Positions 1,813 to 28,102 of a stretch of 44,964 nucleotides of DNA are shown here, piece after piece. The notes beneath the pieces were generated by a model. That model did not search any database, had not been told where the DNA came from, and was given only the letters and a program-made list of their open reading frames with translations. The stretch is from a virus. Position 1 is the stretch's first letter. Every line of letters starts with the position of its first letter. The position numbers and the translations under genes were made by a program. The stretch spans positions 1 through 44,964 of IMG/VR virus record IMGVR_UViG_3300049793_000014, one strand, 5' to 3'.

Positions 1813-3318
1813 TTACGCCCCTTTGGGTTTGTTGCCCACATTAGCCGGGGCAGGCACGCCGGGCACGTTAGGAGGCATTGCAAGCGCCATAGCGGCGGCT
1901 GTTTCGGCAGCAATGGCCGACTTAGCCTTTACGTCGTCTTCGGTCGCTACGCCAGCCTTGCGCAAGCATGACCTCATTTCTTCAAACGTCAGCGCACCGG
2001 CTTGCCATTCTTTGATTACTTCGGCGCGTTCTTCTGGCGTCTTCGTGGCAATGTCGTAATCGGTATTAAGTTCAAATTCGATTTCGGTTTCAGGTACGCC
2101 CAACAACTTAGCGCACCATTTCAGCGCCCAAAGATACGCCGCCGAAACGTTCTTTGTTGTAGTGGAAAGCGTCGAGCTTTCTCCGGTAGATTCCATCTTT
2201 GCTTCAAAGGCGGTTCGCTGAACTTGCTTTTCTTGAACCAGCTTCGCGCCGAGTGCAACCATTTGGCGCTCTTTGGTATCCATCGCTTCTTTAATCATCG
2301 TGTTCTCTTGCGCTTGCAAAAGTTCGGCGCTTGCGCCTGCGGGCAATGGAATGCCGCCACGACTGCCAAAATTAATAGTCCCTTTCAAAACCTTGTCTAC
2401 CCATTCTTCCGTAAGTCCGGTAAGAACTGGCGTAGGTTGCCCGACGATAAAACAGGTTTCTTCGTAGTCGGCGGAATTGCGGTAGTGTGCGACGTTCAGC
2501 GAAGCCAGATCATAAAGATTCGGATTATCCGGCGTAGGGTCGTTGTTTTCCGAACCGATAAACATAAACGGGATTTCGCGTAACTTGTTGCCATCTGCGC
2601 CGAGCATTTCGATTGATGGCCCCGGTTCAAAATTGCCTTGAATTTTCATCTTGCCGTTCCAAGGCGTAGGCAGTTTTTCGCGCCAAATTTCTTGGACATA
2701 TTCGCCTTTGGCGTCCAGTTTCAAAACGCGGAATTGCACGGCCTTTTTCATTTCAAAACCGTCATCTTCGATTTCGTACAGTTCAAACAATACGACCAAA
2801 GCTAACAGTTCTTCCGCGCCACGTTGAATAATACGCCAGTTGATAATTTCCAGCGGTTCGTATGTGCTGATTGTTGGATGAATCTTGCCGCTTGCAAGAT
2901 CGGCCATTGTTGCGCCGCCTTCGGTAGTTGGATAGTCAACCAATACGCCGGAACGCGAATATGCCAGCGTCAGCAATTCGGAACGCTTCGCCGATTGCAC
3001 CAGTGTTACGCCTGTTCCGCTTGCGTTGTCTACAATTGGTTGCAACAGCGCCGGAACCTTCAAGACAGGTTCGCGCATGAAGACTTGGCCCAGCAAGCCG
3101 GTCATGGTGCGGCGGGTTACGTTGTAGAACACGGCGCGCTTGATATAAGCATCGTACCGCGATTTGTTTTCGGCTGATTTGTCGGTTGCGTTCGGCATTG
3201 GCAAATAAACCGTCTTTGCGTCTTTGATTGCCGTTTCGCCTGCCAAGCAATCCCGAATCAAAGTGTATTGAGCCGTCAAGCTTACGACTTCGGGACGGAT
3301 AAAAGAGACGTTAGGCAT
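1813..3318 (-). CDS. Portal protein (DUF4055-like)
   Basis: The 501-residue protein follows the terminase large subunit (14-bp gap) and precedes the Mu F-like gene. The N-terminal region with RPEVV, the segment FYNVTRRTMTGLLGQVF and the later ISTYEPLEIINWR stretch match my memory of DUF4055 portal proteins, which form the dodecameric DNA channel at the capsid vertex. The C-terminal 40 residues are Ala/Pro-rich (PPNVPGVPAPANVGNK) and probably disordered. A perfect copy of the dispersed word (1833-1843) is read there as A-N-V-G-N. Length is typical of siphovirus portals. Confidence 0.85.
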   Translation of the reverse strand: MPNVSFIRPEVVSLTAQYTLIRDCLAGETAIKDAKTVYLPMPNATDKSAENKSRYDAYIKRAVFYNVTRRTMTGLLGQVFMREPVLKVPALLQPIVDNASGTGVTLVQSAKRSELLTLAYSRSGVLVDYPTTEGGATMADLASGKIHPTISTYEPLEIINWRIIQRGAEELLALVVLFELYEIEDDGFEMKKAVQFRVLKLDAKGEYVQEIWREKLPTPWNGKMKIQGNFEPGPSIEMLGADGNKLREIPFMFIGSENNDPTPDNPNLYDLASLNVAHYRNSADYEETCFIVGQPTPVLTGLTEEWVDKVLKGTINFGSRGGIPLPAGASAELLQAQENTMIKEAMDTKERQMVALGAKLVQEKQVQRTAFEAKMESTGESSTLSTTTKNVSAAYLWALKWCAKLLGVPETEIEFELNTDYDIATKTPEERAEVIKEWQAGALTFEEMRSCLRKAGVATEDDVKAKSAIAAETAAAMALAMPPNVPGVPAPANVGNKPKGA

Positions 3319-3332
3319 GATATAAGATTCCT

Positions 3333-4922
3333 TTAAGACGGTAGTAATACTTTGAACTTCTTGTAATTGGCACGGCCTGCGCCTTTTAAAACACGATAGC
3401 GCGTCATATCATACGGATGGTCTTCGGCCTTCGTGTCAACGTCATCAATCTTGTCCGGGTCGCGGGGCAACGTCGGCAAAATCTCAATTGACGCAACGCA
3501 ATTTGCCATGAAGTATATACCCGGTTCTTCCTTTTTTACAGAAGCTTCTAGCCTATCGCGTAATAACTGCAATCCAATGATGCGCGAACCGGGCGATTTG
3601 TCGGACTCTAACCAGCGAACGCCCTTTTTAGACATTAACTTTTCCGTCGTATCTAGTTCCGAATCAATCACTTGACGAATGCGGTTATCCGCTGGGCCGG
3701 GCCAAGGTTGCGACGAAATCCAGCCGTTTGCCATCATCGAAATTTCACGGTCAATAATGCCTTGCGCAATAGCCGAAGCAGAAAGTTTTAAACCTTTGTT
3801 TGTTCCTACTTCTTCGGTTCCGTACCATTCATAAAATTGGATTAATGAACCCGGTTGCGGTGTAAATAAAAACTCGCTGCCGTCTTGTAAAACAATCGTT
3901 GCGGATTCGCCGTTAGCTTCGGCCCACCAGCCCACACTAAACGGGTGCGAACTGCCGTCATCGAATGTTCTATCAAGATTCCAGCCGGGCGGAATAACGA
4001 AGCGCGGCACCACATGAATATGCGACTGCCAAACGTCATCAAGTGCGCCGCCTGCGGTAACGTCCCAATCGCCATAGAGCCAAGCTTTTCTAAGGTTCGG
4101 GTCTTTGATGCTTTCAAGTTCGGCGATGTAGCCGGGAGGCAGATAGATATTTTCGCGGTACGATCCGAAGATTGCAACCTGCGTTTTTGTTACGATTTCG
4201 TTTAACTGCGTTTGCGGGTTGAAGATTTCAACTTGCGTTCTAACTACGCTGCCGCGTGGCGCGCAGATAATGAAACGACGTTTCACCCAATTGTGGCCGG
4301 GGCCATTCGGGTTAGTCGTGCTAAAAACTTCAAGCGGAATTGGTGGCAGCGGCAAGCCATTCGGCGTTAAATACCGGCCTTTTTTATCGCGTGGTGTATC
4401 GCGGATGGGGTCAAACGAACTACGATTGACCGACATAAACTTATCGTATAAGTTGCCGTTCGGATGCTTAGTTAATTCGTTCCATCCGATGAAAGGGTAT
4501 TCGTGACCGTGAAAGCCTTCGTAGTCTTGAATCTTCTTTACATGGCGGAATAAAAGTTCTTCGCCTGTCGGCCAAACCCATTTATATGCGCTGGTTGATT
4601 CGTAGAACTTTGCGCCGTCGCCGAACTTGCCGAACCATTTCTTAGATTCGGTTACAAGTCCGTTCAAATGGTCGAATTCAAGATCAAAGATAACGCCGCG
4701 CCAATACTGGCCGTAACCCTTGCCAACGTGGCGCAGGAAGCGCATAAGCTGCGTTATGGTCTTACCGGGGCCGCGTGCGCCTTCGTATAGCGTGTGATCG
4801 CATCGGGAGTCAATGGCGATGCTTTGCGAGCCGGGAAGGGGCCGCCATACGATTTCAGGGGCCGGAAGGTTGCATAGGCTGGCGGCTATCGCCGTTTGCT
4901 TAATGGCGGCTTCGGCTGACAT
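3333..4922 (-). CDS. terL: Terminase large subunit
   Basis: The 529-residue packaging motor has an N-terminal ATPase with Walker A GARGPGKT at residues 48-55 and a Walker B-like YPFIGWNELTK, in which Asn replaces the usual Asp before the catalytic Glu. The C-terminal half has acidic segments (DWDVTAGGALDDVW, GPADNRI, KAEDHPYD) compatible with an RNase H-like nuclease. It overlaps terS by 23 bp, and the portal follows. The family hydrolyses ATP to pump DNA and cuts concatemers. A divergent copy of the dispersed word (AGCCCACACTA, 3929-3939) lies in the nuclease-coding half. Whether packaging is cos or headful cannot be told from this contig. Confidence 0.93.
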   Translation of the reverse strand: MSAEAAIKQTAIAASLCNLPAPEIVWRPLPGSQSIAIDSRCDHTLYEGARGPGKTITQLMRFLRHVGKGYGQYWRGVIFDLEFDHLNGLVTESKKWFGKFGDGAKFYESTSAYKWVWPTGEELLFRHVKKIQDYEGFHGHEYPFIGWNELTKHPNGNLYDKFMSVNRSSFDPIRDTPRDKKGRYLTPNGLPLPPIPLEVFSTTNPNGPGHNWVKRRFIICAPRGSVVRTQVEIFNPQTQLNEIVTKTQVAIFGSYRENIYLPPGYIAELESIKDPNLRKAWLYGDWDVTAGGALDDVWQSHIHVVPRFVIPPGWNLDRTFDDGSSHPFSVGWWAEANGESATIVLQDGSEFLFTPQPGSLIQFYEWYGTEEVGTNKGLKLSASAIAQGIIDREISMMANGWISSQPWPGPADNRIRQVIDSELDTTEKLMSKKGVRWLESDKSPGSRIIGLQLLRDRLEASVKKEEPGIYFMANCVASIEILPTLPRDPDKIDDVDTKAEDHPYDMTRYRVLKGAGRANYKKFKVLLPS

Positions 4923-10190: not shown

Positions 10191-10703
10191 TTACCCCTTG
10201 TATTCGATATAACCGCGCAGCATATCCGCAGCTTCGCGCCACGAATAACATACGCACCAGCCGTAACCTACGGCCCTTGCATGATAGCTAAACGCGATTT
10301 GTTCGTCCGACAATCCGCCTTTACTACTTTCCTTCTTCGGCTTTTCGCTAGGCTTCTTCATTTCGATATAAAGCCCGTGATACCCCGCGATAGGCCAAGG
10401 TAGAAACGTGTCAGCTACGCCGGTTCGCACGCCTTCGGCCTTCATCTGGCCGCCGCGAATGGCCCTTGACTTGGCATTGTCGCCCCGGCTACCGCCGTTA
10501 GGGATTGCGTGAAACCATGCGAGCGCGGGCACTGTTGGCGTTTCATACATTGCATACGGCGAGTTGCAAGGCATTACGCCAGTTTTGGCCCATTCGTCGG
10601 CGATGTCAAAGCCGTGTAAGTGAGCAAATGCTACGTAAGCAAACAATGCCGTTTGGTGGCCGTGTTCAGTGCCTGACTTCGCCAATTGATCCGGCGTAAT
10701 CAT
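10191..10703 (-). CDS. VRR-NUC family nuclease
   Basis: The 170-residue protein has the VRR-NUC pattern: an N-terminal helix with E13 and HQ, then GVRTGVADTFLPWP (Asp) and GLYIEMKKP (E-x-K) as the PD-(D/E)xK core, then SDEQIAFSYHARAVGYGWCVCYSWREA. Family members are structure-specific nucleases, and phage forms are often proposed as Holliday-junction resolvases. It would resolve branched replication or packaging intermediates. The start codon overlaps the upstream stop as ATGA (10700-10703), so translation is coupled. Confidence 0.85.
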   Translation of the reverse strand: MITPDQLAKSGTEHGHQTALFAYVAFAHLHGFDIADEWAKTGVMPCNSPYAMYETPTVPALAWFHAIPNGGSRGDNAKSRAIRGGQMKAEGVRTGVADTFLPWPIAGYHGLYIEMKKPSEKPKKESSKGGLSDEQIAFSYHARAVGYGWCVCYSWREAADMLRGYIEYKG

Positions 10704-10960
10704 TCAAACACACAATAGTCAGCGTATTGTATGCGCTTCGTATCCTGTTCTTCGTCCGATGCAACGCCGAGCGATTCGCTGCGGCCATAGCATTGTTTGA
10801 GCATCGGCGAGATAAAACCAGCCGAATGCACCGTGAAGCCCTTCAAAGGCCCGGCAAGCAGCGATTCGACCATTTCAGCATGGATGATAAGATCGCTAAA
10901 AATTACAGGTACGAACTGCATCATACCAACGACAGGCCGTTTTAACATTACGTATTTCAT
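10700..10960 (-). CDS. Hypothetical protein
   Basis: The 86-residue protein is preceded by RBS AAGGGG and coupled to the nuclease gene by an ATGA overlap. It has two beta-like hydrophobic stretches (YVMLKRPVVGMMQFVPVIFSDLIIHAEMV) and a conserved-looking HSAGFISP segment. The coupling suggests it works with the nuclease or is needed in similar amount. I do not recognise it. Confidence 0.6.
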   Translation of the reverse strand: MKYVMLKRPVVGMMQFVPVIFSDLIIHAEMVESLLAGPLKGFTVHSAGFISPMLKQCYGRSESLGVASDEEQDTKRIQYADYCVFE

Positions 10961-12236: not shown

Positions 12237-12264
12237 ATTCTAGCACGACTTTGTGCTATGTCAA
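12237..12264 (-). promoter_or_regulatory. Extended -10 leftward promoter with consensus -35
   Basis: On the minus strand TTGACA (12259-12264), 16 bp, then TG-C-TAGAAT (-10 at 12237-12242), followed by GAAGCTATC. It drives the 12206-to-9676 run of small genes. Confidence 0.75.
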
Positions 12265-12887
12265 GGTTCGTTTTTAACTTCGTTGATGCGGTACATAAGC
12301 GCGGTACTATCGTAAATGCCTTTTGCAATTTGCTTTGGAACTTCGGTTAGCAAACCAGAACGGCAAAGCGCGTTGATTGCGTCCTGTAGACGTTTTCCGT
12401 TGTTGTAAAAAAGTGTGGTTGAAGCCAGACGCCTATGCAAATAGCTTTTGGCAACTACGTTTTCAGCTTTCATCTTTTCACTTGCAGAACGATATTTGGT
12501 AATCTGTTCATATGATGCCGCTTTGTATTGGACAACAATACGTTTAACTTCTGCTATGGCGCGTTCTGCATCGTCAGGATGCCCACATTGAGGCGTCACA
12601 CAAGCTACCGGGCGAGCGTTCAATTCGTAATATAGCTTGCGGTTATGACCGTCAGGCAAGCGCCCCATTTCGTAACAGTCATCGTGTTCAACAACGACAT
12701 ACCGCCGCTTGCCCCGGCTGGCATCGTTTGCGAAGGCTTCTAACTGTTCCCAGCTTTCAAAATCTTCTTTAGCAAGCTTAATGCTAAAACCAACTTCTAA
12801 TGAATGCGATGCTTTGTCAACCAAATCCATACGGTTAATAAATTCGATGACCGACGAAGACGATTGATAAGTTTCGATTGGTTGCAT
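12261..12887 (-). CDS. Stand-alone paralogue of the primase C-terminal domain
   Basis: The 208-residue protein ends with about 70 residues that align with the last 70 of the prim-pol/helicase encoded at 16018. Shared positions are SYxxRRLAS, a following Phe, A-(I/L)-x2-LC-x2-G, an acidic residue, and YxxxAxxYxI. The pattern looks like a winged-helix-type DNA-binding domain. The N-terminal 130 residues are unrelated to the primase and not recognised. It is the first gene next to the AT-rich iteron island (12953-13268), with its own promoter (12924-12952) and RBS (AAGGA). It may bind the origin, load the primase or compete with it; all three are inference. Confidence 0.65.
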   Translation of the reverse strand: MQPIETYQSSSSVIEFINRMDLVDKASHSLEVGFSIKLAKEDFESWEQLEAFANDASRGKRRYVVVEHDDCYEMGRLPDGHNRKLYYELNARPVACVTPQCGHPDDAERAIAEVKRIVVQYKAASYEQITKYRSASEKMKAENVVAKSYLHRRLASTTLFYNNGKRLQDAINALCRSGLLTEVPKQIAKGIYDSTALMYRINEVKNEP

Positions 12888-16017: not shown

Positions 16018-18345
16018 TTAAAGCCCGAAGGCTTTAGGGTTTGCAATCATATATGAGACTGCCGAAGTATTGTAATCTTTGGACATAATCGCCCGGCTCA
16101 TTTCTTGAGCATCGCCGCGTTCGCATAACGTTTTAAGTGCGCGCTTGATTGCACCTGACGAACCTATGCGATCTTTCTTGAATATTGAAACCGAAGCTAA
16201 CCGCCGTTGACAATACGAATATGGAATGATGCGGGCTGAATGCAAATGGCCCATTCCTTCGCCGGAGTATTTCATAACGTCAGGCCATGCGGAAGTGACG
16301 TATTCTTTAATCGTAGTCATCATCTTAGCAAGCTGCTTTGTTTCGTCGTTCTCTACGCCAATTTCCCCGGCATCAAAACGTGTAAGCAAGTTGCGAACGT
16401 CGGCGACAACTAGATTAATAGCCCATGATAAAACATCGCTAGTAATTTGCGGGTCATATGGGTTGCAACCAACGGCGACGGTTGCGGCCAACTTCAACGC
16501 CTTCATGTGGGCACGACTCCAAAGCTGGCGCTTAACGTCCCGGTCTGTGCTGTTCGTGTTCGCCCTACAATATTCTTCAAAATCATAAGCTTGCTGCTCT
16601 ACGCCTTGAACGAATTGAACGTGAATTGCTTTGTGCTGACTATTTAACATAAGCGAATGCGCGCACAGTGTAGAAAGCCGGTCAATAAGTTCAAACGAAG
16701 GCTTTGCACTTGCCCCGGCACGATTCAAAGGCGGAACAATGCCTTTGTATTCAATCATGGTAAAGCGCGGTAACAAACCTTCGCTAATTAAACCTTCGTG
16801 CAAACCTTCGTAGAACTTTTCAGGCGTCGATTCGCCCATAAGGGTAAAAGCTGGCGCGGTAATCGCTGCCGTGTTCTTATCCTTATCCGAATAGATTGAC
16901 GGCCTTAATACTTTGCCTTCGCCCGATTTGTTATATGCGTCAAGCAGGAAGCGGCGCAGGCCCAGCAAATGCGGCGGCGCGTTGAACGCTGCCATTTGCT
17001 GCAAGTACATACCAAATTCGCCGACCAACGAAACAAAACACGTTGGCCCCCGCGACATATATTTGATGACTGCCTGCGACGATGCGATTTCACCGGGGCC
17101 AATAAAATCAACAGCGGCGGGAACTGTGCGAATAACTTGTTGCATAAGCTTGTCAATGCCGCTTGCAATAGCTTCTTTGCCTGTTCCTGTAGGTGCGAGT
17201 AATAGAACGTACTGATTAAGGCCGGTTGCGGATATGTTGTATGACCTGCCCACAATACCAGCCACCAGACCCAGCGCACCGGCAAGCGCGATTTCAGGCA
17301 CCGGGCGCGGCGCGGCTGCATAGATGAATTGGGCAATCTCGCCAACAAGTCCGGGAGGCACACTGTAGACCGATGACGTTACAGGCATTTCAATATACGG
17401 CGTGCATTCGACAGGCGGCGGAAGTGCTGCGGCTTGACTATTTTGGCTTGGCGGCGGCAAGGCTTCGCGGCTACGTTGGGCCAAAATTTCTTCCAAAAGG
17501 TTGCGCAGGCCGTCAATATCTACAGGCGGCAACATACGATCAAACGTTTTGCCTAACATATAGTTCATGTAGTCATCGCGCCATGCTTTATCACGCGCCC
17601 CCAAACCGGACGCACGAAACAACCGCGTTATCTGCGTCCGATTGTACGTATAAAACGCGATAATATCGACCAGTGCGAAATCAGCTTCCGATTGCGATTG
17701 ATACATACCTTGCCACCGCCCGGCATACAGTTCGGCAAATTTGTCGCCGTTCGCTGCGGTAATAGCGCGGTTAATAACTTGTTCGTCGGTTTCTTTTTCT
17801 TCTGCGCAACCCGCATAGATCGCAGCAGCTACGCCACCATGCCCCATTTGTGAATGAAGCGCATTGAGCATATCGTTATATTCGACAATAGGCGCGGCGC
17901 GGTACACATTGCCGGTCATAGTCATATACCGTTCTGACGTATAGATTTCGATAGAGCTACGGCGACGGCCTGACGGAAGATCGCCTTTAACTATAATATG
18001 GATGCCGTGCCCGGAAGGCGACAATTCGGCGTAACTGTTGAATTCAGTATAAATCTTAAACTGGCGGTCGAAAACTGTTTGATCGCCTTTAGGGTCGTCC
18101 AGATCAATAAAGCCGTAAGGGTCTTCGCGGGTTAATACGAAGCCAATGCCGGAATAAAAACCGTAAGACATTGAGGCAATAACTTCGGCATAAGTTGCCC
18201 ATGTACTAGGGTCTGTTACGCTTGCAAGACCGCCAGATCGTGCGGAATACGGAACCTTAACCGGCTTCGGTGCGTCAAGGTCTTCGTAACGCCAGCAAAT
18301 CCATTGCACGTAAGTTTGCATTTCAAGGGGGATATTCTCAAACAT
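16018..18345 (-). CDS. Primase-polymerase/helicase fusion (prim-pol + DUF3987-like ATPase)
   Basis: The 775-residue protein has an N-terminal prim-pol (AEP) domain: D81-L-D83 in GFIDLDDP, S111-G-H113 in SPSGHGIHI, and an acidic IEIY near 132-135. A linker rich in Pro/Gln/Ala (about 293-320) leads to a P-loop ATPase with Walker A APTGTGKE at 384-391 and DUF3987-like sequence (LVGEFGMYL, TLMGESTPEKFY). The last 70 residues are a probable winged-helix domain, copied in the protein at 12261. It would make primers and unwind DNA for the family B polymerase encoded on the other arm. It overlaps the HTH gene by 8 bp. Length and domain order match NrS-1-like or P4-like primase-helicases. Confidence 0.85.
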   Translation of the reverse strand: MFENIPLEMQTYVQWICWRYEDLDAPKPVKVPYSARSGGLASVTDPSTWATYAEVIASMSYGFYSGIGFVLTREDPYGFIDLDDPKGDQTVFDRQFKIYTEFNSYAELSPSGHGIHIIVKGDLPSGRRRSSIEIYTSERYMTMTGNVYRAAPIVEYNDMLNALHSQMGHGGVAAAIYAGCAEEKETDEQVINRAITAANGDKFAELYAGRWQGMYQSQSEADFALVDIIAFYTYNRTQITRLFRASGLGARDKAWRDDYMNYMLGKTFDRMLPPVDIDGLRNLLEEILAQRSREALPPPSQNSQAAALPPPVECTPYIEMPVTSSVYSVPPGLVGEIAQFIYAAAPRPVPEIALAGALGLVAGIVGRSYNISATGLNQYVLLLAPTGTGKEAIASGIDKLMQQVIRTVPAAVDFIGPGEIASSQAVIKYMSRGPTCFVSLVGEFGMYLQQMAAFNAPPHLLGLRRFLLDAYNKSGEGKVLRPSIYSDKDKNTAAITAPAFTLMGESTPEKFYEGLHEGLISEGLLPRFTMIEYKGIVPPLNRAGASAKPSFELIDRLSTLCAHSLMLNSQHKAIHVQFVQGVEQQAYDFEEYCRANTNSTDRDVKRQLWSRAHMKALKLAATVAVGCNPYDPQITSDVLSWAINLVVADVRNLLTRFDAGEIGVENDETKQLAKMMTTIKEYVTSAWPDVMKYSGEGMGHLHSARIIPYSYCQRRLASVSIFKKDRIGSSGAIKRALKTLCERGDAQEMSRAIMSKDYNTSAVSYMIANPKAFGL

Positions 18346-19937: not shown

Positions 19938-20657
19938 ATGCAGCAATCGAACTTGAAACCAGCCGGGCAACTGGCCCAGCGGTTCGGCGTCAAGGCTATC
20001 TTGTATGGCAAGCCGGGCACCGGCAAAACGCCGCTAATGAATACGGCCCCGCGTCCGGTCTTGCTCGCAACCGAACCGGGTTTGCTTTCGATGCGCAATA
20101 GCCAAGTGCCAACTTGGGACGCATTTAACCCCGAACGCATCGAAGAATTCTTTAAATGGTTTTTTGAATCGAAGGAAGCGGCCAACTTCGACACATTGGG
20201 CGTTGACTCCGGTTCGCAACTGGCGGAAATCATTTTGGCGCAGGAACAGAACCGCCAGAAAGACGGGCGCAAAGCATACGGCGAACTTTCCCGCCGTTGC
20301 ATGGTGTATTTCGACCAACTGTTTTTCATGCCGCAGAAGCATATTGTTTTGATCTGCAAGCAAACGCAGGCCGAAACCGGCAAAACCATCGTTCAAGCTA
20401 ACGGCGCGTTTAATGTCGAATTTACGTATCAAGCGCAACCGTATTTTCCCGGCAACGATTTGAACGTAAAAGTTCCGCACCGCTACGACGAAATTTTGTA
20501 TATGGCAGAAGCAACCGTACCCGGTCAACAGCGGCCAGTAATGGCACTAAGAACCAAAGGCACCGCCGAAATATTGGCGCGGGATCGTAGCGGCAATCTT
20601 GCCGAACTTGAACCGCCCGATTTGTCGGCACTGTTTCAAAAGGCAATGATTCAATAA
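19938..20657 (+). CDS. Sak4-like RecA/AAA-type recombination ATPase
   Basis: The 239-residue protein has Walker A LYGKPGTGKTPL near residue 24 and a Walker B-like FDTLGVDSGSQLAE near 95. Its size and arrangement match AAA_24/Sak4 phage proteins, single-domain RecA-like ATPases that promote single-strand annealing with the help of a cognate SSB. The DUF669-type SSB is encoded immediately downstream, a pairing seen in many phages. It probably works in recombination-dependent replication. RBS GAAAGG. Confidence 0.82.
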   Translation: MQQSNLKPAGQLAQRFGVKAILYGKPGTGKTPLMNTAPRPVLLATEPGLLSMRNSQVPTWDAFNPERIEEFFKWFFESKEAANFDTLGVDSGSQLAEIILAQEQNRQKDGRKAYGELSRRCMVYFDQLFFMPQKHIVLICKQTQAETGKTIVQANGAFNVEFTYQAQPYFPGNDLNVKVPHRYDEILYMAEATVPGQQRPVMALRTKGTAEILARDRSGNLAELEPPDLSALFQKAMIQ

Positions 20658-20721: not shown

Positions 20722-21486
20722 ATGGCACAACTTATTACCCCGTTTGATGCAAACCAATTTGACCCTTCGCAGGGCGTAGGCGGTTTGCCGCTGGGTCGTC
20801 ATCCTGTCGTAATTGATTCGTCGGAAGTCAAGGCGAACAGCAACAACGACGGCGGCTATTTGCAACTGAACTTGAAAGTTATCGACGGCCCGGCTACCGG
20901 CACCATCGGCGCTTACCGGCTGAACCTGTACCACAACAACCCGCAAACCGTGCAAATCGCGCATCAACAGCTTTCGGCTGTTTCGCACGTAATCGGCGTG
21001 TTCCAATTTGCTGATTCGCAGGCGTTGCACGGCAAGCCGTTCATCATCGAAGTTCAGCCGCAGAAGAACAACGCGCAATACACCGAAGTTAAAAAAGTGT
21101 TCGATATGAACGGCAACGAACCCGGCAAGCAGGGCAACGGCCCGGCAGCTTCGGCACCAATGCAGGGCGCACAAGGCGGCGGTTTCGGCCAAGGCGCGCA
21201 GCAGCAACCGGCAGCGGGTCAAGGCGGCTTCGCGCAGGGCGGCCAAGCGGCCCCGGCAGGCAATGCGGCCCCTGCGGCTGGTGGCTGGCAGCAGGGCGGC
21301 CAAGCAGCGGCACCAGCGGGCAACCCAGCAGGCGGCGCAGCGCCGGGCGGCTGGAATCAAGGCGGCGCAGCGGCAGGCAACACGGCACCGCCTGCAACGG
21401 GCGGCGGCTGGCAGCAAGGCGGCGCACCAGCAGCGGGCGCACCAGCCCAAGGCAACCCGAACGGCCCAGCATGGGGCCAACGCTAA
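20722..21486 (+). CDS. Single-stranded DNA-binding protein, DUF669 type
   Basis: The 254-residue protein has an OB-fold-like N-terminal 130 residues typical of DUF669 (GRHPVVIDSSEVKANSNNDGGYLQLNLKVIDGP, QFADSQALHGKPFIIEVQ). Residues 135-254 are a long disordered linker made of imperfect Gly/Gln/Ala/Pro repeats around GGWQQGGQAA. Unlike bacterial SSB it ends in PAWGQR and has no acidic DDIPF tip; that tip is found instead on the clamp encoded at 24824. It would coat ssDNA and partner the Sak4-like ATPase. RBS AAAGG. A terminator follows at 21500-21536. Confidence 0.8.
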   Translation: MAQLITPFDANQFDPSQGVGGLPLGRHPVVIDSSEVKANSNNDGGYLQLNLKVIDGPATGTIGAYRLNLYHNNPQTVQIAHQQLSAVSHVIGVFQFADSQALHGKPFIIEVQPQKNNAQYTEVKKVFDMNGNEPGKQGNGPAASAPMQGAQGGGFGQGAQQQPAAGQGGFAQGGQAAPAGNAAPAAGGWQQGGQAAAPAGNPAGGAAPGGWNQGGAAAGNTAPPATGGGWQQGGAPAAGAPAQGNPNGPAWGQR

Positions 21487-21548: not shown

Positions 21549-22091
21549 ATGTTAATGGAAGATATTACAGACGTATTAGCCAAGCCCATTCATTGCGATA
21601 ATTGCTGTTCTCTGAATATTCAATTCGTCAATAACAAATGTGTTTATGGTCAAGAGTTCGGCGACTGGCCCTATATTTATTTCTGCAACGATTGCCGCGC
21701 TTCTGTCGGCTGTCATCCGGGCACAGATATTCCACTTGGCAGAATGGCGGATCGTGCTACGCGGGCGCTTCGCTCAAAAGCTCATTTGGCGTTTGATAAA
21801 CTTTGGAACGGCGGTTTAATGACCCGCACAAAGGCATACGCTTGGCTTGCAGCGCAATTAGAAATCGAACATAGCCAATGTCATATTTCATGGCTTTCAA
21901 TGGATCAATTAAGAAAAGTCGCAGTTTTATCAACGGCGTTTCTTGAACAGAATTTAAAGGCGCTTATGCGCCGTAAGGCAAAAGCAAATGAAAAAGAACA
22001 CAAACGCAGAGAACGCGAATTTGAGTCTAAGCGCCGGGAGTCAGACGGAAAGCTTAATCGGAAAAAATCCCGGCACCATCATCGCGCTTGA
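21549..22091 (+). CDS. Zinc-finger protein, DUF3268-like
   Basis: The 180-residue protein has two Cys pairs near the N-terminus (CDNC and CNDC), then VGCHPGTDIPLGRMAD, and a later CHISWLSMDQLRKV. This is the arrangement I recall for DUF3268 zinc-finger proteins. The C-terminal 50 residues are extremely basic (KRREREFESKRRESDGK, ending HHHRA) and suit nucleic-acid binding. The last 104 bp overlap the nuclease gene in another frame. The exact role in replication or recombination is unknown. Confidence 0.7.
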   Translation: MLMEDITDVLAKPIHCDNCCSLNIQFVNNKCVYGQEFGDWPYIYFCNDCRASVGCHPGTDIPLGRMADRATRALRSKAHLAFDKLWNGGLMTRTKAYAWLAAQLEIEHSQCHISWLSMDQLRKVAVLSTAFLEQNLKALMRRKAKANEKEHKRREREFESKRRESDGKLNRKKSRHHHRA

Positions 22092-23124
22092 TTCGCCGGG
22101 CGTTTCAAGTCAAGTTGCAAAACAAATTAGCGAGAACATTGACCGCTATTGTGTTGAAACGTATGACGGCGGGCACCGTACCCATTTGGGCGCTTCCCTG
22201 ATCGGCGACGAATGCAAACGCAAACTTTGGTATATCTTCCGCTGGTGCCTGCAAGAACCAACGGACGGACGCAAACAACGGCTTTTCAATCGCGGCCACC
22301 GCGAAGAAGCCCGCTTTATTGAATGGCTGGAAGGCATCGGCGTTAAAGTCTGGTATGAAGATCGGGAAAGCAACCCTCTTTATTACTGCGTCGAATCCGA
22401 TTCATATCATTTGAAAAGCGAAGTTTTCAAAGACGAAAACAGTACGTTAGCAAATCTGGCCGTAGAAATAACCAAAGACCGGCCCGACTATATCAAGCAC
22501 ATTGCCCGCGCCAAGGCTGACGGCATCGAGTTCCCGCAATACCGTATATCAGACTGCGGCGGCCACTTCGGCGGATCGCTGGACGGCATCGGCATCCTGC
22601 CCGACTGGTTCCATATTGACGAACCCGTTTTGCTGGAATTCAAAACGAACGGAACCGGCGCAGGCTTTAATAAACTAATGGCGGAAGGCATGGCCGTATC
22701 AAAAGGCCAGCACTACGCCCAAACGTCCACATATGGCAAGAAAGGCGTACAGGGTACGAAGTTCCGTTATGTGCTTTATTTGAACATCAATAAGAACGAC
22801 GACACAATACACGTTGAACTTGTCAAACTTAGTGATACGCTTGGCGGTCAAATGCTTATAAAGGCCGAACAAATCATTACATCGCAGGTTCCACCGTCGC
22901 GCCTGTCGGACAATCCGACATATATTAAATGCGGTTACTGTCACTTTAAAGAAATCTGCCACCGTGGCGCGATGCCTGAAATGAATTGCCGCAGTTGCAA
23001 ATCGGCGGTTCCTGTCGATAACGCAGAATGGTTTTGTGAAGTTCATAAAGGGATAATCCCTAAAGACTTCATTAAAAAGGGTTGCGAATCCTATATCCCA
23101 ATTACGGCGATTACCCAAAAATGA
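21988..23124 (+). CDS. PD-(D/E)xK exonuclease, Cas4/RecB-like
   Basis: The 378-residue protein has a RecB-type nuclease core: GGHFGGSLDGIGI (Asp) followed by VLLEFKTNG (E-x-K) and QHYAQTSTYG (the Q-x3-Y motif). Four or more Cys near the C-terminus (YIKCGYCHFKEICHRG, MNCRSCK, WFCE) could ligate an iron-sulfur cluster or zinc, as in Cas4 and AddB. It would resect DNA ends to feed the Sak4/SSB annealing system. The ATG at 21988 gives a 104-bp overlap with the upstream gene; I saw no better start after 22091. The SF2 helicase follows by ATGA coupling. Confidence 0.82.
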   Translation: MKKNTNAENANLSLSAGSQTESLIGKNPGTIIALDSPGVSSQVAKQISENIDRYCVETYDGGHRTHLGASLIGDECKRKLWYIFRWCLQEPTDGRKQRLFNRGHREEARFIEWLEGIGVKVWYEDRESNPLYYCVESDSYHLKSEVFKDENSTLANLAVEITKDRPDYIKHIARAKADGIEFPQYRISDCGGHFGGSLDGIGILPDWFHIDEPVLLEFKTNGTGAGFNKLMAEGMAVSKGQHYAQTSTYGKKGVQGTKFRYVLYLNINKNDDTIHVELVKLSDTLGGQMLIKAEQIITSQVPPSRLSDNPTYIKCGYCHFKEICHRGAMPEMNCRSCKSAVPVDNAEWFCEVHKGIIPKDFIKKGCESYIPITAITQK

Positions 23125-24818
23125 TTCCTGCTATCCTTCCCGAAACTCGTTGGTATCAAGAGGAAGCCGAATTCGCCGTCTTTGATTATTTTGAACGCGG
23201 TAATGTGGGCAATCCTGTCGTGTGTATGCCAACGGGCACCGGGAAATCTCACGTTATCGCTAATCTTATTCGGCGCATCTTTTGGCTTTGGCCGACGCAA
23301 CGGGTAATGATGCTGACGCATGTAAAACAACTGATCGTTCAAAATGCCGAAAAGCTTTTGCAGGCTTGGCCGACTGCGCCGCTGGGCGTGCATAGCGCCG
23401 GGCTTAATTCGCGTGATATTGTCATGCCTATTATCTTCGGCGGCGTTCAATCGGTTGCCAACGTTATTAAGAAAAGTTTAGAAACTAACGACGGAAGGGC
23501 TTTTTATCAAAAGCATTTCGGGCATCGGGATTTGGTCTTTGTTGACGAATGCCATTTGATAAGCCCCGAAGAAGATACTGAATATCAGTACGTAATCGCA
23601 GAACTTAAAAAAATAAACCCATATTTAAAAGTAATCGGCTTTACTGCCACGCCTTACCGAATGAGGCAGGGTATGATTACAGACGGCGGATTATTTACCG
23701 ATATTTGTTATGACATTACCGGCGTTGAATCTTTCAACCGCCTTATTTACGAAGGCTATATTTCGCCTTTGGTGCCAAAGCCTACAGTAACAGAAATTGA
23801 CATTTCAAACGTTGGTATTAGCAGGGGCGATTTCAATAAAGGCCAATTGGAAGCGGCAGTAGATAAAGACGAAATAACTTATAGCGCCGTTTCCGAAATG
23901 GTCAACGCCGGGCAGGATCGCCGAAGCTGGCTTGTATTTTCGGCGGGTATTGATAACGCGGAACACATAGCGGCAATGTTCCAAATGTTCGGCGTTCAAG
24001 CTGCCGCCGTTCATTCCAAGTTAAAAGATAGCGAAAACGACGAACGCATAAGGGATTATAAAAACGGCGCTTTGCGCTGTCTCGTAACGAAAGACAAATT
24101 AACAACCGGGTTTGACGATCCAAAAACGGATATGATTGGCGTCTTGCGTCATACTCTTTCACCGGGCCTATGGGTTCAATTGTTGGGACGCGGAACGCGG
24201 CCAAGTTGGGCCACCGGCAAAGAGAATTGCCTAGTGTTGGACTTCGCACGTAATACGCCGCGCCTTGGCCCTATTAATGATCCGCGTATCCCGCAAAGGC
24301 CGGGCAAAGGCGGTGGCGATGCTCCCATAAGAATATGCGATTGCTGCAAAATGTATAACCACGCTGCGGCGCGCTTTTGTGGTGGCGGTCGTAGTCCAGA
24401 AGAAGGCCGACGTTATGGCGGTTGCGGCAATGAATTCGTATTTGAAAACAAGATATTTGCCAAGGCTGGCGAAGCCCTTTTAATTCGCCCCGATGATGCA
24501 GTTATCGAATATTTCGACGTAAAGAAAGTGATTTACAATCTACACGAAAAGAAAAATGCAAATGGCGTATTGACTTCGCCACCAATGATTAAAGTTTCGT
24601 ACTTCTGCGGGTTCCAAATGTTCAACGAATATATTATGTTGGAGCATAACGGAATGCCGGGGAAGAAGTCGCGGGATTGGTGGCGGCAACGCCATTCAGA
24701 AGAACCCCCGATGACTACACACGAAGCTTTGCGCCGAGTATCCGAGCTTCGCAGTCCTGCGCGAATTCGGGTGCATGTAAATAAGAAGTATCCTGAAATT
24801 TTATCTGCCGAATGGTGA
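23121..24818 (+). CDS. SF2 DEAD/DEAH-type helicase
   Basis: The 565-residue protein has motif I MPTGTGKS (about residues 36-43), motif II VDECH, motif III GFTATP, the C-terminal RecA-like domain (WLVFSAGIDNAEHIAAMF, KDKLTTGFDDP) and motif VI QLLGRGTRPS. After it come Cys clusters (CDCCKMYNHAAARFCGGG, GGCGNEF) that probably bind zinc. The ATG at 23121 overlaps the nuclease stop as ATGA; a start 13 codons upstream lies inside that gene. It is likely a duplex or branch-unwinding helicase for recombination or replication restart. A perfect dispersed word (23201-23211) lies at G-N-V-G-N, just before motif I. Confidence 0.88.
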   Translation: MIPAILPETRWYQEEAEFAVFDYFERGNVGNPVVCMPTGTGKSHVIANLIRRIFWLWPTQRVMMLTHVKQLIVQNAEKLLQAWPTAPLGVHSAGLNSRDIVMPIIFGGVQSVANVIKKSLETNDGRAFYQKHFGHRDLVFVDECHLISPEEDTEYQYVIAELKKINPYLKVIGFTATPYRMRQGMITDGGLFTDICYDITGVESFNRLIYEGYISPLVPKPTVTEIDISNVGISRGDFNKGQLEAAVDKDEITYSAVSEMVNAGQDRRSWLVFSAGIDNAEHIAAMFQMFGVQAAAVHSKLKDSENDERIRDYKNGALRCLVTKDKLTTGFDDPKTDMIGVLRHTLSPGLWVQLLGRGTRPSWATGKENCLVLDFARNTPRLGPINDPRIPQRPGKGGGDAPIRICDCCKMYNHAAARFCGGGRSPEEGRRYGGCGNEFVFENKIFAKAGEALLIRPDDAVIEYFDVKKVIYNLHEKKNANGVLTSPPMIKVSYFCGFQMFNEYIMLEHNGMPGKKSRDWWRQRHSEEPPMTTHEALRRVSELRSPARIRVHVNKKYPEILSAEW

Positions 24819-24823
24819 AAACT

Positions 24824-26002
24824 ATGTCTAGCCCCATTGAAGAAAACGTACCTGTTCCGCCTGTCGATAAGCCTAAAAAGACAAGGGCACGACGTAAAGC
24901 CGCCGAAGAAATCGCCGCAGTTAATCCAGCGGCAAAACTGGCCGCTGCATTAAAGTTTCTGCTTCCGGCACAAAAGAAGATCGGGCCAACAGGTTTGCAG
25001 TTTGCGAACCTTTGCGGGCACTACGCTTGCGCATCGGACGGAATTCGGACAATAGCAACGCCAATTGACGAAGATTTGACCGCGTGCCCACATACACACC
25101 AGTTTATCGAAGCCCTTTCAAACGTCGGTTCCGAACTGGCGATAACGCAACTGTCGGCACAAGCCCTTTCCGTGGCTTCTGGCCGCTTCCGGGCGCTGGT
25201 GGCGTGCGTCGAACCGAACGAAGTGCCTATCAGCGCGCCGGATGCCTGCATTGCCGTCATTGACGACCGGATCAAGGCCGCGCTTGCTGCCGTTGGGGTA
25301 CTGGCTACCGATGGCGCACCGGACGCTATAAAAGCCGCCGTTCTGTTGCAAGCAAATACCGCAGTTGCAACGAACGGGTTTGCGCTTATGGAATACTGGC
25401 ACGGCATTGATTTGCCGCCCGGCCTGTTGATCCCGAAGCTTTCCGCCGTAGCAATCGCCAAAGCCGATAAGAAGCTTACAGGCTTCGGCTTTTCGCAAAC
25501 ATCGGCGACGTTCTGGTATGAAGACGGTTCGTTTATCAAAACGCAGCTTTACGGAGAAACGTTCCCCAACTACAGCATCTTCTTTAACGTCGAAGGCTTG
25601 GAAGCTAGGCCGCTGCCTGACGAATTCTTTAAGGCCGTCAAGGCAATGGAACCATTCAGCGAAAACGGCGTACTGTACTTCGCAAATGGCACGATCCATT
25701 CATCGGCCCGCGAAGCGCAGGCAAGCACGTTCAAGGTTGAAGGAATCCCCGAAAGTATGGGCTTCAACGCAAAATACTTGCTTTCTCTTGAAGATCATTT
25801 TAAACTGGCTCACTTCGACCAATCAAACCGCAAAGTTGTGTTCTTCAACGCAGAAAGCACAGTCCGGGGCGTGTTGATGGGCGTAGGCCAGCAGGAAAAG
25901 CCAGCCGAAGAAACGTATGTTAAAACTTGGGACGGCGGCGAAGCGGCACCGGGTCAAGTCAAGCCGAACTTTTCCTTAATGGACGACGACATACCTTTTT
26001 GA
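24824..26002 (+). CDS. Beta-type sliding clamp homologue with SSB-like DDDIPF tail
   Basis: The 392-residue protein aligns by eye with DnaN. VATNGFALMEYWHGIDLPPGLLIP, then KTQLYGETFPNYSIFF, match domain II of E. coli beta (VATDGHRLA, SKLVDGRFPDY). SMGFNAKYLLSLEDHFK and RGVLMGVG match domain III (IGFNVSYVL). The N-terminal 35 residues are Pro/Lys/Arg-rich. The protein ends NFSLMDDDIPF, identical in its last six residues to the E. coli SSB tip. It would be the processivity ring for the family B polymerase encoded 15 bp downstream. The ATG at 24824 is preferred over 24812 because GGTGA precedes it. A copy of the dispersed word is at 25085-25095. Confidence 0.78.
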   Translation: MSSPIEENVPVPPVDKPKKTRARRKAAEEIAAVNPAAKLAAALKFLLPAQKKIGPTGLQFANLCGHYACASDGIRTIATPIDEDLTACPHTHQFIEALSNVGSELAITQLSAQALSVASGRFRALVACVEPNEVPISAPDACIAVIDDRIKAALAAVGVLATDGAPDAIKAAVLLQANTAVATNGFALMEYWHGIDLPPGLLIPKLSAVAIAKADKKLTGFGFSQTSATFWYEDGSFIKTQLYGETFPNYSIFFNVEGLEARPLPDEFFKAVKAMEPFSENGVLYFANGTIHSSAREAQASTFKVEGIPESMGFNAKYLLSLEDHFKLAHFDQSNRKVVFFNAESTVRGVLMGVGQQEKPAEETYVKTWDGGEAAPGQVKPNFSLMDDDIPF

Positions 26003-26017
26003 AACCGAGTTTATAAC

Positions 26018-28102
26018 ATGCCGAACGACTTAGGTTTTGTAGTTGCCAAGAATAGCCGGAAGATTGATAAACTTTCGGCTAATCTTGGTCGTTCGCTTCG
26101 TCCGATTGACGAAATGAACGAAATAGAATTAATGGCCGTTCCGGCTGGCGATTTGTTTGTTTTTGACGTTGAATGTTATAAGAACTTTTTCTTTGTAGCG
26201 TTTAAGCATCTTAAAAGCGGCAAGTACGTAACCTTTGAACAGTCGCCCGACTTTGCGTTAAACGTTAATAAGCTGCGCTGGATGCTTTGGCGCTTTTGTA
26301 TTGTGGGCTTCAATTCAAAATCATATGACGTACCTATAATCGAGTACGCGCTATCCGGGGCAACCTGCGAAGACTTGAAGTATGCAACAGACTTTATTAT
26401 CAAATGTGGCCCGCAATACGGCACGCCTAAAACAACCGTCTTTGATTTTGAAAAGCGGTTCCATGTAAAAATCAATCGCTACAATCACATTGACTTAATC
26501 GAAGTGGCACCGCTTCAAGGTTCGTTGAAGCTTTACGCGGGCCGCCTGCATTGTGATCGTATGCAAGACTTGCCATTCCCTGACGATTACATACTGTGCC
26601 GCGAAGATGCCGCAGTTGTTCGCCCTTATTGCTGCAACGATCTGAATAATACAGAATTGCTCTTTAACGAACTGGCGGGCGAGATTCATTTACGTAATGA
26701 AATGTCGCAGGAATATAACGTAGACTTGCGTTCTAAGTCGGATGCACAAGTTGCCGAAGCTGTCATCAATAGCGAACTTCAAAAGATTCTAGGATGGTGG
26801 CCTAAGAAGCCAACAGTATCCGAAGGAACGGTATTGCAATACAACGTTCCTGATTTTATCAAGTTTCAAACGCAGGAATTAAACGACGTATTGAACAAGG
26901 TTCGCAATGCACGCTTTCAGCTTGACGGCTTGGGTTCGCCGCTTTGGCCTGCCGGGCTTGGCGAACTGGAAAAGACAAAGGGCAAAGAATCCAAATGGGT
27001 TTTGAAAGTCAAGCTTGCCAATAGCGTTTATAAGCTTGGAATGGGCGGCTTGCATTCACAAGAAAGCTGCATAGCATTTAAAGCCGATGCTAACACAATC
27101 ATTGCAGATAACGACGTAGAATCTTTTTATCCGCGCATCATACTTAATCAGCGGCTTTACCCTGCGCACTTGGGCGAAGCGTTCTTGCAAGTTTATGAAA
27201 AGATTGTCAATGCCCGTATTTACGCCAAGGCACAAGCCAAGGCTTGCGAAAAAGCGCATGACCGCGCAGGCAAGAAACACTGGAAGCAAATAGCCGACAG
27301 CTTAAAGATTACGATTAACGGAAGCTTTGGCAAACTCGGGAACAAGTATTCGACGTTGTATGCACCGCAATTGATGTTGCAAGTAACGATTACCGGCCAG
27401 CTTGTCTTGCTTATGTTAATCGAACGCTTGAACCTTGCAAACATTAACGTAGTTAGCGGAAATACAGACGGCATTGTGTCGGTGTACGAAACCGCACGGC
27501 ACAACGAAGTGCGCGCAATCATTGCGCAATGGGAAAGCGAAACGAACTTCAAGACAGAAGAAACCCGCTATTCGCAAATCTATTCCCGCGACGTTAATAA
27601 TTACGTAGCCGTTAAACTTGAAGGCGGCGACGCAGAAGCGCGGTTCTTAGATGAACGTTTAGGATGCAAGACTAAAGGCACGTACAGCGAACGCGGCAGC
27701 GCGCTTAATTCGGTTCTGTCGAAGAATCCAGAAAGCCTTATTTGCACCGATGCAATGCTGCAATACATCGTAAGCGGCAAACCTGTAATTGAAACTATTA
27801 AAGAATGTACCGACATTAAACGCTTCGTTAGCGTTCGCAATGTCAAAGGTGGCGGCGAGAAAAACGGGAAGTATTTAGGTAAGGTTGTTCGCTGGTATTA
27901 CCCTAAGAACGAACCGGGTTACATAGCGTATCTTGAAAGCGGAAATAAGGTCAACTTGACGCAAGGCGGGCGGCCATTGATGGATTTGCCCGATGCGTTC
28001 CCTAGCGATGTTGATTACGAATATTACGCGAAACAAGCAACCGCAATGTTATATGAATGCGGTTGCTTGAAGAAGCCGAAGACGGCCCCGCTTTTCTTTT
28101 AA
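26018..28102 (+). CDS. Family B DNA polymerase with 3'-5' exonuclease
   Basis: The 694-residue replicative polymerase is compact for family B. Exonuclease motifs are FDVE (D50, E52), GFNSKSYD (N99-D104) and Y204-CCN-D208. Polymerase motif A is DVESFYP (D366), motif B is KITINGSFG (430-438), and motif C is GNTDGI, with only D484 kept of the usual DTD. It ends KTAPLFF, a plausible clamp-binding peptide next to the clamp gene. The last codons contain a 12-bp hairpin (28034-28069), and the stop overlaps that of the convergent tail gene. No TPR1/TPR2 protein-primed insertions are evident, so RNA or prim-pol primers are likely. Confidence 0.88.
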   Translation: MPNDLGFVVAKNSRKIDKLSANLGRSLRPIDEMNEIELMAVPAGDLFVFDVECYKNFFFVAFKHLKSGKYVTFEQSPDFALNVNKLRWMLWRFCIVGFNSKSYDVPIIEYALSGATCEDLKYATDFIIKCGPQYGTPKTTVFDFEKRFHVKINRYNHIDLIEVAPLQGSLKLYAGRLHCDRMQDLPFPDDYILCREDAAVVRPYCCNDLNNTELLFNELAGEIHLRNEMSQEYNVDLRSKSDAQVAEAVINSELQKILGWWPKKPTVSEGTVLQYNVPDFIKFQTQELNDVLNKVRNARFQLDGLGSPLWPAGLGELEKTKGKESKWVLKVKLANSVYKLGMGGLHSQESCIAFKADANTIIADNDVESFYPRIILNQRLYPAHLGEAFLQVYEKIVNARIYAKAQAKACEKAHDRAGKKHWKQIADSLKITINGSFGKLGNKYSTLYAPQLMLQVTITGQLVLLMLIERLNLANINVVSGNTDGIVSVYETARHNEVRAIIAQWESETNFKTEETRYSQIYSRDVNNYVAVKLEGGDAEARFLDERLGCKTKGTYSERGSALNSVLSKNPESLICTDAMLQYIVSGKPVIETIKECTDIKRFVSVRNVKGGGEKNGKYLGKVVRWYYPKNEPGYIAYLESGNKVNLTQGGRPLMDLPDAFPSDVDYEYYAKQATAMLYECGCLKKPKTAPLFF
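28034..28069. terminator. Hairpin at the convergence of the two arms
   Basis: CAAGCAACCGCA (28034-28045) and TGCGGTTGCTTG (28058-28069) form a perfect 12-bp stem with a 12-base loop, inside the polymerase 3' end. U tracts are poor on both sides (CTTGTTT leftward, a TTTTCTTTT about 22 bases later rightward). As no other structure separates the converging operons, it may work as a bidirectional terminator. Confidence 0.45.

Follow-up and report, generated by a model that had tools for sequence, protein, structure and literature searches.

Why should the sliding clamp of a phage end in the peptide by which bacterial SSB calls its partners? Among the signals that recruit proteins in bacterial DNA replication and repair, the SSB tip holds a central place, and the SSBs of proteobacterial hosts end in DDDIPF. 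The same residues close a clamp-like open reading frame (ORF) in the stretch of DNA analyzed here (the window), a virus record of 44,964 bases related to Pseudomonas phage 73 (Septimatrevirus), Burkholderia phage KL1, and Rhodobacter phage RcTitan; the known hosts of these relatives are Proteobacteria. As listed in Table 1, the clamp gene is flanked by those of a RadD-like helicase and a family B polymerase, and a DUF669 SSB, Sak4, and a Cas4-type exonuclease belong to the same cassette; the primase is encoded on the opposite strand. In the relatives examined, Sak4, SSB, exonuclease, helicase, clamp, and polymerase form a single cassette as well. The C terminus of the polymerase resembles a clamp-binding motif (KTAPLFF, positions 28079 to 28099; QVDMFA, RPDLFDD, and KSSLFD in relatives), and a stand-alone protein similar to the C-terminal part of the phage primase (PHROG 29311 and 3022) is encoded at 12261 to 12887 on the minus strand.

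Table 1. Features of the replication region in the window
Feature	Positions	Strand	Remarks
Primase/prim-pol, DUF3987-like region	16018..18345	-	
Sak4-like annealing ATPase	19938..20657	+	
Phage SSB (DUF669 / PHROG 6015)	20722..21486	+	Ends PAWGQR, no DIPF tip
Cas4-type exonuclease	21988..23124	+	Homologue in a related locus (L289) has DSDIPF tip
RadD-like SF2 helicase	23082..24818	+	Tipless here; best solved match RadD, E 1.3e-83
DnaN-type sliding clamp, SSB-like tail	24824..26002	+	392 aa; alternative in-frame start 24812
Predicted folded three-domain clamp core, residues ~35-355	24926..25888	+	AlphaFold2 pLDDT mostly above 90; Foldseek to DnaN
Predicted disordered C-terminal tether, residues ~356-386	25889..25981	+	pLDDT about 50-55
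SSB-Ct-type tip DDDIPF, residues 387-392	25982..25999	+	Directly before stop; conserved in relatives
Family B DNA polymerase	26018..28102	+	Ends KTAPLFF

The clamp ORF matched PHROG 947, annotated as a DNA polymerase processivity factor, with an E value of 2.8e-66, and gave no match in Pfam at E 0.1. A single-chain AlphaFold2 model built on 39 relatives reached a pLDDT of 89.6, with residues ~35 to 355 rigid, and a Foldseek search of the model against solved bacterial DnaN returned a probability of 1.00 and an E value of about 1e-17 over ~360 columns. By these profile and model comparisons, the tip-bearing ORF is a three-domain DnaN-type clamp in its predicted fold. The initial annotation had recognized domains II and III only; all three domains are present, and its expectation of a clamp fold was borne out by structure prediction. 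Bacterial DnaN shares this fold with the phage protein over the full length, but the latter is about 15% identical to it, is extended at the N terminus, and adds a C-terminal tail of 37 residues that bears the docking tip. The in-frame ATG at 24812 that could serve as an alternative start overlaps the helicase stop.

The final residues of the ORF are FSLMDDDIPF, followed by the stop, exactly where this end had been annotated. They finish a tail of ~37 residues that is predicted to be disordered (AlphaFold2 pLDDT about 50 to 55, and about 50 over residues 361 to 392) and, as proposed earlier, may therefore be free to recruit partners. The tail combines the features of an SSB-Ct peptide, namely, an acidic stretch, I/V-P-F exactly at the C terminus, and a disordered tether, on a protein that has a clamp fold instead of an OB-fold ssDNA-binding domain. 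The initial annotation had made its reading depend on the presence of the tail in homologues, and the tip is indeed kept in the clamps of KL1 (MDDDIPF), phage 73 (YEDDIPF), PaMx42 (YSDDIPF), and RcTitan (DPDDEIPF); of 57 more clamps covered by a second survey (see below), 18 have it too. The clamps of Septimatrevirus, Kilunavirus, and Titanvirus (73, KL1, and RcTitan; PHROG 947) are orthologous to that of the window and lie in the same cassette with the same tip, but they differ in linker sequence, and the annotation consulted does not mention their tail. Between relatives, the tip codons differ at each position while the residues stay constant. Across 77 tips, D at position −5 and D or E at position −4 occur in most, position −3 is I or V, P and F are fixed, and the C terminus is free.

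In relatives with a tailless clamp, the tip was found elsewhere in the same cassette. One carrier is a small Cys4 protein of 65 to 88 aa, encoded at or beside the helicase end, which finishes in FDIPF, FDVPF, GEIPF, or DKIPF in the Lokivirus-like phages Shy and Pavpe01, Achromobacter phages Axy18 and nyashin, Variovorax phages VCLv21 and VPv64, and Sphingomonas phage Lucius. It corresponds to phrog_23504, a family of unknown function with the pattern CxxC...C...PP...C followed by I/VPF, and its matches extend to the final residue in 54 of 54 isolate records. A Foldseek search with its model gave no match. The window has no match to phrog_23504, and there is no space between its helicase and clamp genes. 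The other carrier is the helicase itself, whose extension ends in YADLDDDIPF in Nipunavirus NP1 and in DPDYVPF in CAjan. Among more distant relatives, no tip was found near the helicase loci of Mycobacterium and Cylindrospermopsis.

The distribution of the tip was determined in two surveys, using a regular expression (C-terminal I/V/L/M-P-F with an acidic residue within the preceding four) that was set after the first cases had been seen and applied unchanged to the second sample. Survey 1, a helicase-seeded scan of viral contigs, yielded 80 loci; with isolates included, 68 loci had two or more of the carriers (clamp, helicase, and small protein) complete and were counted. Survey 2 was a clamp-seeded scan from which repeats of survey 1 had been removed and to which a few separately fetched isolate loci had been added. 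One tip was present in 55 of the 68 loci of survey 1, none in 13, and two in 0; the corresponding numbers for the 53 loci of survey 2 with a helicase end and a clamp were 42, 11, and 0. Altogether, exactly one strict tip occurred in 97/121 loci, two in 0/121, and none in 24/121 (about 20%), counts obtained with a single profile each for helicase and clamp, on loci that are related and hence non-independent.

Many tipless loci show degenerate ends, such as NFPPF, EIPY, DDIPY, and NDCPF. Where the clamp is tipped, the neighboring small protein has lost or weakened its tip in six loci (L049, L050, L074, L265, L269, and L280), ending, for example, in ELKG (L049 and L265), GTSGT (L050), or DPCPF (L074). 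Tips on the small protein and on the clamp were mutually exclusive (3/3/23/0; Fisher P = 0.005, kinship ignored), and all loci with a helicase tip lacked the small protein (27/27). In two near-doubles, L264 and L273, the clamp is tipped and the small protein still ends in IPF, though without the acidic residues. Endings of this kind were found in 2 of 22,684 background ORFs of the surveyed loci (1/16,758 and 1/5,926), the second being the Cas4-type exonuclease of L289 (positions 2613 to 3638 of that locus), which ends in LDSDIPF and constitutes a fourth carrier; the small protein of L289 is tipped as well. A strict law of one tip per genome is ruled out by this double and weakened by the IPF ends of L264 and L273, and the rule is therefore a strong tendency. 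In Acinetobacter phages Loki (L013) and IMEAB3 (L020), which have the same cassette, a clamp, and no loader, no carrier is tipped; thus, the tip appears dispensable in some hosts.

The SSB of the window had been described from the outset as ending in PAWGQR without the tip, and this description holds for the lineage, in which 0 of 122 SSBs carry a DIPF-type tip (0/78 in survey 1 and 0/44 in survey 2). These DUF669-type SSBs end in PPW or APWGQR (21466 to 21483 in the window), with W among the final nine residues in 74 of 78, versus 1.9% overall. The PxW ending is possibly a second, phage-specific tip. DUF669-type SSBs ending in DDDIPF occur in other phages (L186), so that the tip may have been lost from the SSB at an older stage. 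A pattern search of viral contigs for DDDIPF-ending ORFs gave 119, among them 1 clamp and 5 helicases that fit the RadD-like profile; the largest cluster comprises 64 proteins that are SSB-like in look, not identified individually.

To follow the carrier through the lineage, we used a helicase tree of 93 rows from which the extension was left out. On this tree, the tip-bearing loci require at least six carrier changes; thus, the tip was retained and the carrier was not. Helicase carriers fall into roughly one group, small-protein carriers are widely scattered, and clamp carriers arose several times. The window's clade adjoins a small-protein carrier, suggesting that the local step led from the small protein to the clamp; because the root of the tree is not known, we infer the direction of this change. 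The initial annotation had supposed a move of the tip from the SSB to the clamp. That supposition is upheld in part: the tip is on the clamp, the SSB is tipless, and an older loss from the SSB may have taken place, but the local step appears to have started from the small protein, and the SSB has a PxW end of its own. Judged by sequence, the tip looks like a portable, movable handle for replication helpers, most likely those of the host.

We consider it reasonably probable that this phage has one portable SSB tip, placed on its clamp, and that on the phage fork the tip would bring in host SSB-interacting proteins. The clamp ring would display a true SSB-Ct docking peptide on a flexible tether of ~37 residues, in a lineage that appears to keep the tip on the clamp, the RadD-like helicase, or the small Cys4 protein and not on its own SSB. 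Phage ssDNA would be coated by a tipless SSB that would not call host SSB-interacting proteins, and a separate tip would supply the recruiting signal at the phage fork; it is because the ssDNA-coating SSB is tipless that we infer host recruitment. What the pockets for SSB-Ct grip is the terminal Phe with its carboxylate, together with the preceding acidic residues (PMC10238739). The phage tips possess all of these, and their I or V is the residue expected from proteobacterial SSBs. If a single partner is preferred, it would be the host clamp loader, reached via chi (HolC), since the phage encodes its own clamp and the window ORFs scanned, a set that covered part of the small ones, gave no recognizable loader. 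A further reason is that CAjan and NP1 keep the tip although they encode their own RNase H and ligase; thus, replacing those host functions leaves the need intact. Chi is perhaps the specific partner, a choice made from the absence of a recognized loader. More broadly, and only tentatively, we propose that the SSB hub has been uncoupled from SSB in a large phage lineage: a host-reading tip would hop among clamp, helicase, and small protein, usually in one copy per genome, the PxW tip of the SSB would serve phage partners, and in the window this hub would be the clamp, which would summon the host clamp loader together with further SSB-binding proteins.

The main alternative is that a protein of the phage itself reads the tip, Sak4 being the most plausible one and the primase and the helicase further possibilities; phage recombination and replication proteins would then be held together on the clamp. 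Phage HK620 offers a precedent, for it also has a replication module with Sak4 and an SSB-type C-terminal hexapeptide, and its Sak4 binds SSB-coated ssDNA only when the SSB has its last six residues, NDYPPF (PMC5928155). The genes concerned share one cassette in the relatives examined, which is in line with such a reader. In HK620, however, the tip is on the SSB and not on the clamp; the conserved PxW end of the phage SSB, which is nearer to the HK620 PPF, could serve Sak4, and the DIPF form is the code of the host rather than one specific to phages. As for the helicase, E. coli RadD, its best solved match, binds the SSB tip in a pocket framed by arginines 21, 49, and 145 (PMC10238739), but R21 and R49 are mostly replaced in the phage helicases and only R145 is kept, as K or R. 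Reading of the tip by the helicase through this pocket is disfavored by the loss of two of the three arginines; some phage helicases, unlike RadD, bear the tip themselves. We therefore regard a phage reader as possible but unlikely.

The tip could act as a decoy or inhibitor, filling the SSB-binding pockets of host ExoI, RecQ, and RecO and so protecting phage forks or slowing host replication. Free SSB-Ct-type ligands are able to block the pockets of SSB partners, and the phage peptide is identical to that of host SSB; inhibitor work on such ligands is in line with this (PMC5872125). Yet the carriers are all fork associated and should be present in modest numbers, a situation better suited to recruitment than to titration, and a genome usually has a single tip, making a decoy improbable. 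Alternatively, the tail might fold back and occupy the protein-binding cleft of the clamp, thereby regulating access to it (autoinhibition), or the tip might be a clamp-binding peptide. The C terminus of DnaN, where the phage tail starts, borders the binding cleft, and endings in hydrophobic residues and F resemble clamp-binding motifs. This explanation is very improbable in view of the disorder of the tail in the AlphaFold2 model, the absence of the usual Q from DDDIPF, the clamp-binding-like end that the polymerase already has, and the occurrence of the same tip on proteins other than clamps. A chance or neutral C-terminal extension would be compatible with the one-fifth or so of related loci that have no strict tip, but it is rejected by the 2/22,684 background ORFs versus 97/121 loci; moreover, the tip was kept through repeated carrier change and its residues are conserved while codons vary, so that we give this explanation practically no weight.

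With host recruitment by the clamp tip as the preferred reading, the arrangement can be set against the bacterial one. The SSB-Ct of E. coli (MDFDDDIPF) and the clamp tail both place DDDIPF at the extreme C terminus of a disordered tether; the former, however, is borne by an SSB tetramer coating ssDNA, and the phage peptide by a clamp with the stoichiometry of a ring, a helicase, or a small Cys4 protein, usually once per genome. No description of an SSB tip on a clamp, helicase, or small protein, or of switching with one tip per cassette, was found in the open-access literature (subscription papers were outside this scope). The novelty is the combination; the peptide and the clamp are each already known, and it does not lie in the motif, because DDDIPF-ending SSB-like proteins and tipped DUF669-type SSBs exist elsewhere. 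As a natural experiment, viruses that retain the signal and swap its carrier several times suggest that it functions independently of SSB, and a question becomes testable: which host protein, callable only by an SSB tip, does the phage fork need?

The tip also gives a lead to the function of the small phage proteins of phrog_23504 and of the tailed clamps and helicases of many isolates. In Salmonella phage triss (L221), a small Cys4 protein ending in FDYDVPF is encoded at 10646 to 10873, where the record has no CDS, and the helicase of Moraxella phage Mcat26 (L223) ends in LDDMPF. Two tipped clamps, L062 and L260, have several cysteines in the tail (CADCPKRTNPNEICDCDIPF and CRCADCEIPF, respectively), possibly forming a small metal-binding element beside the tip.
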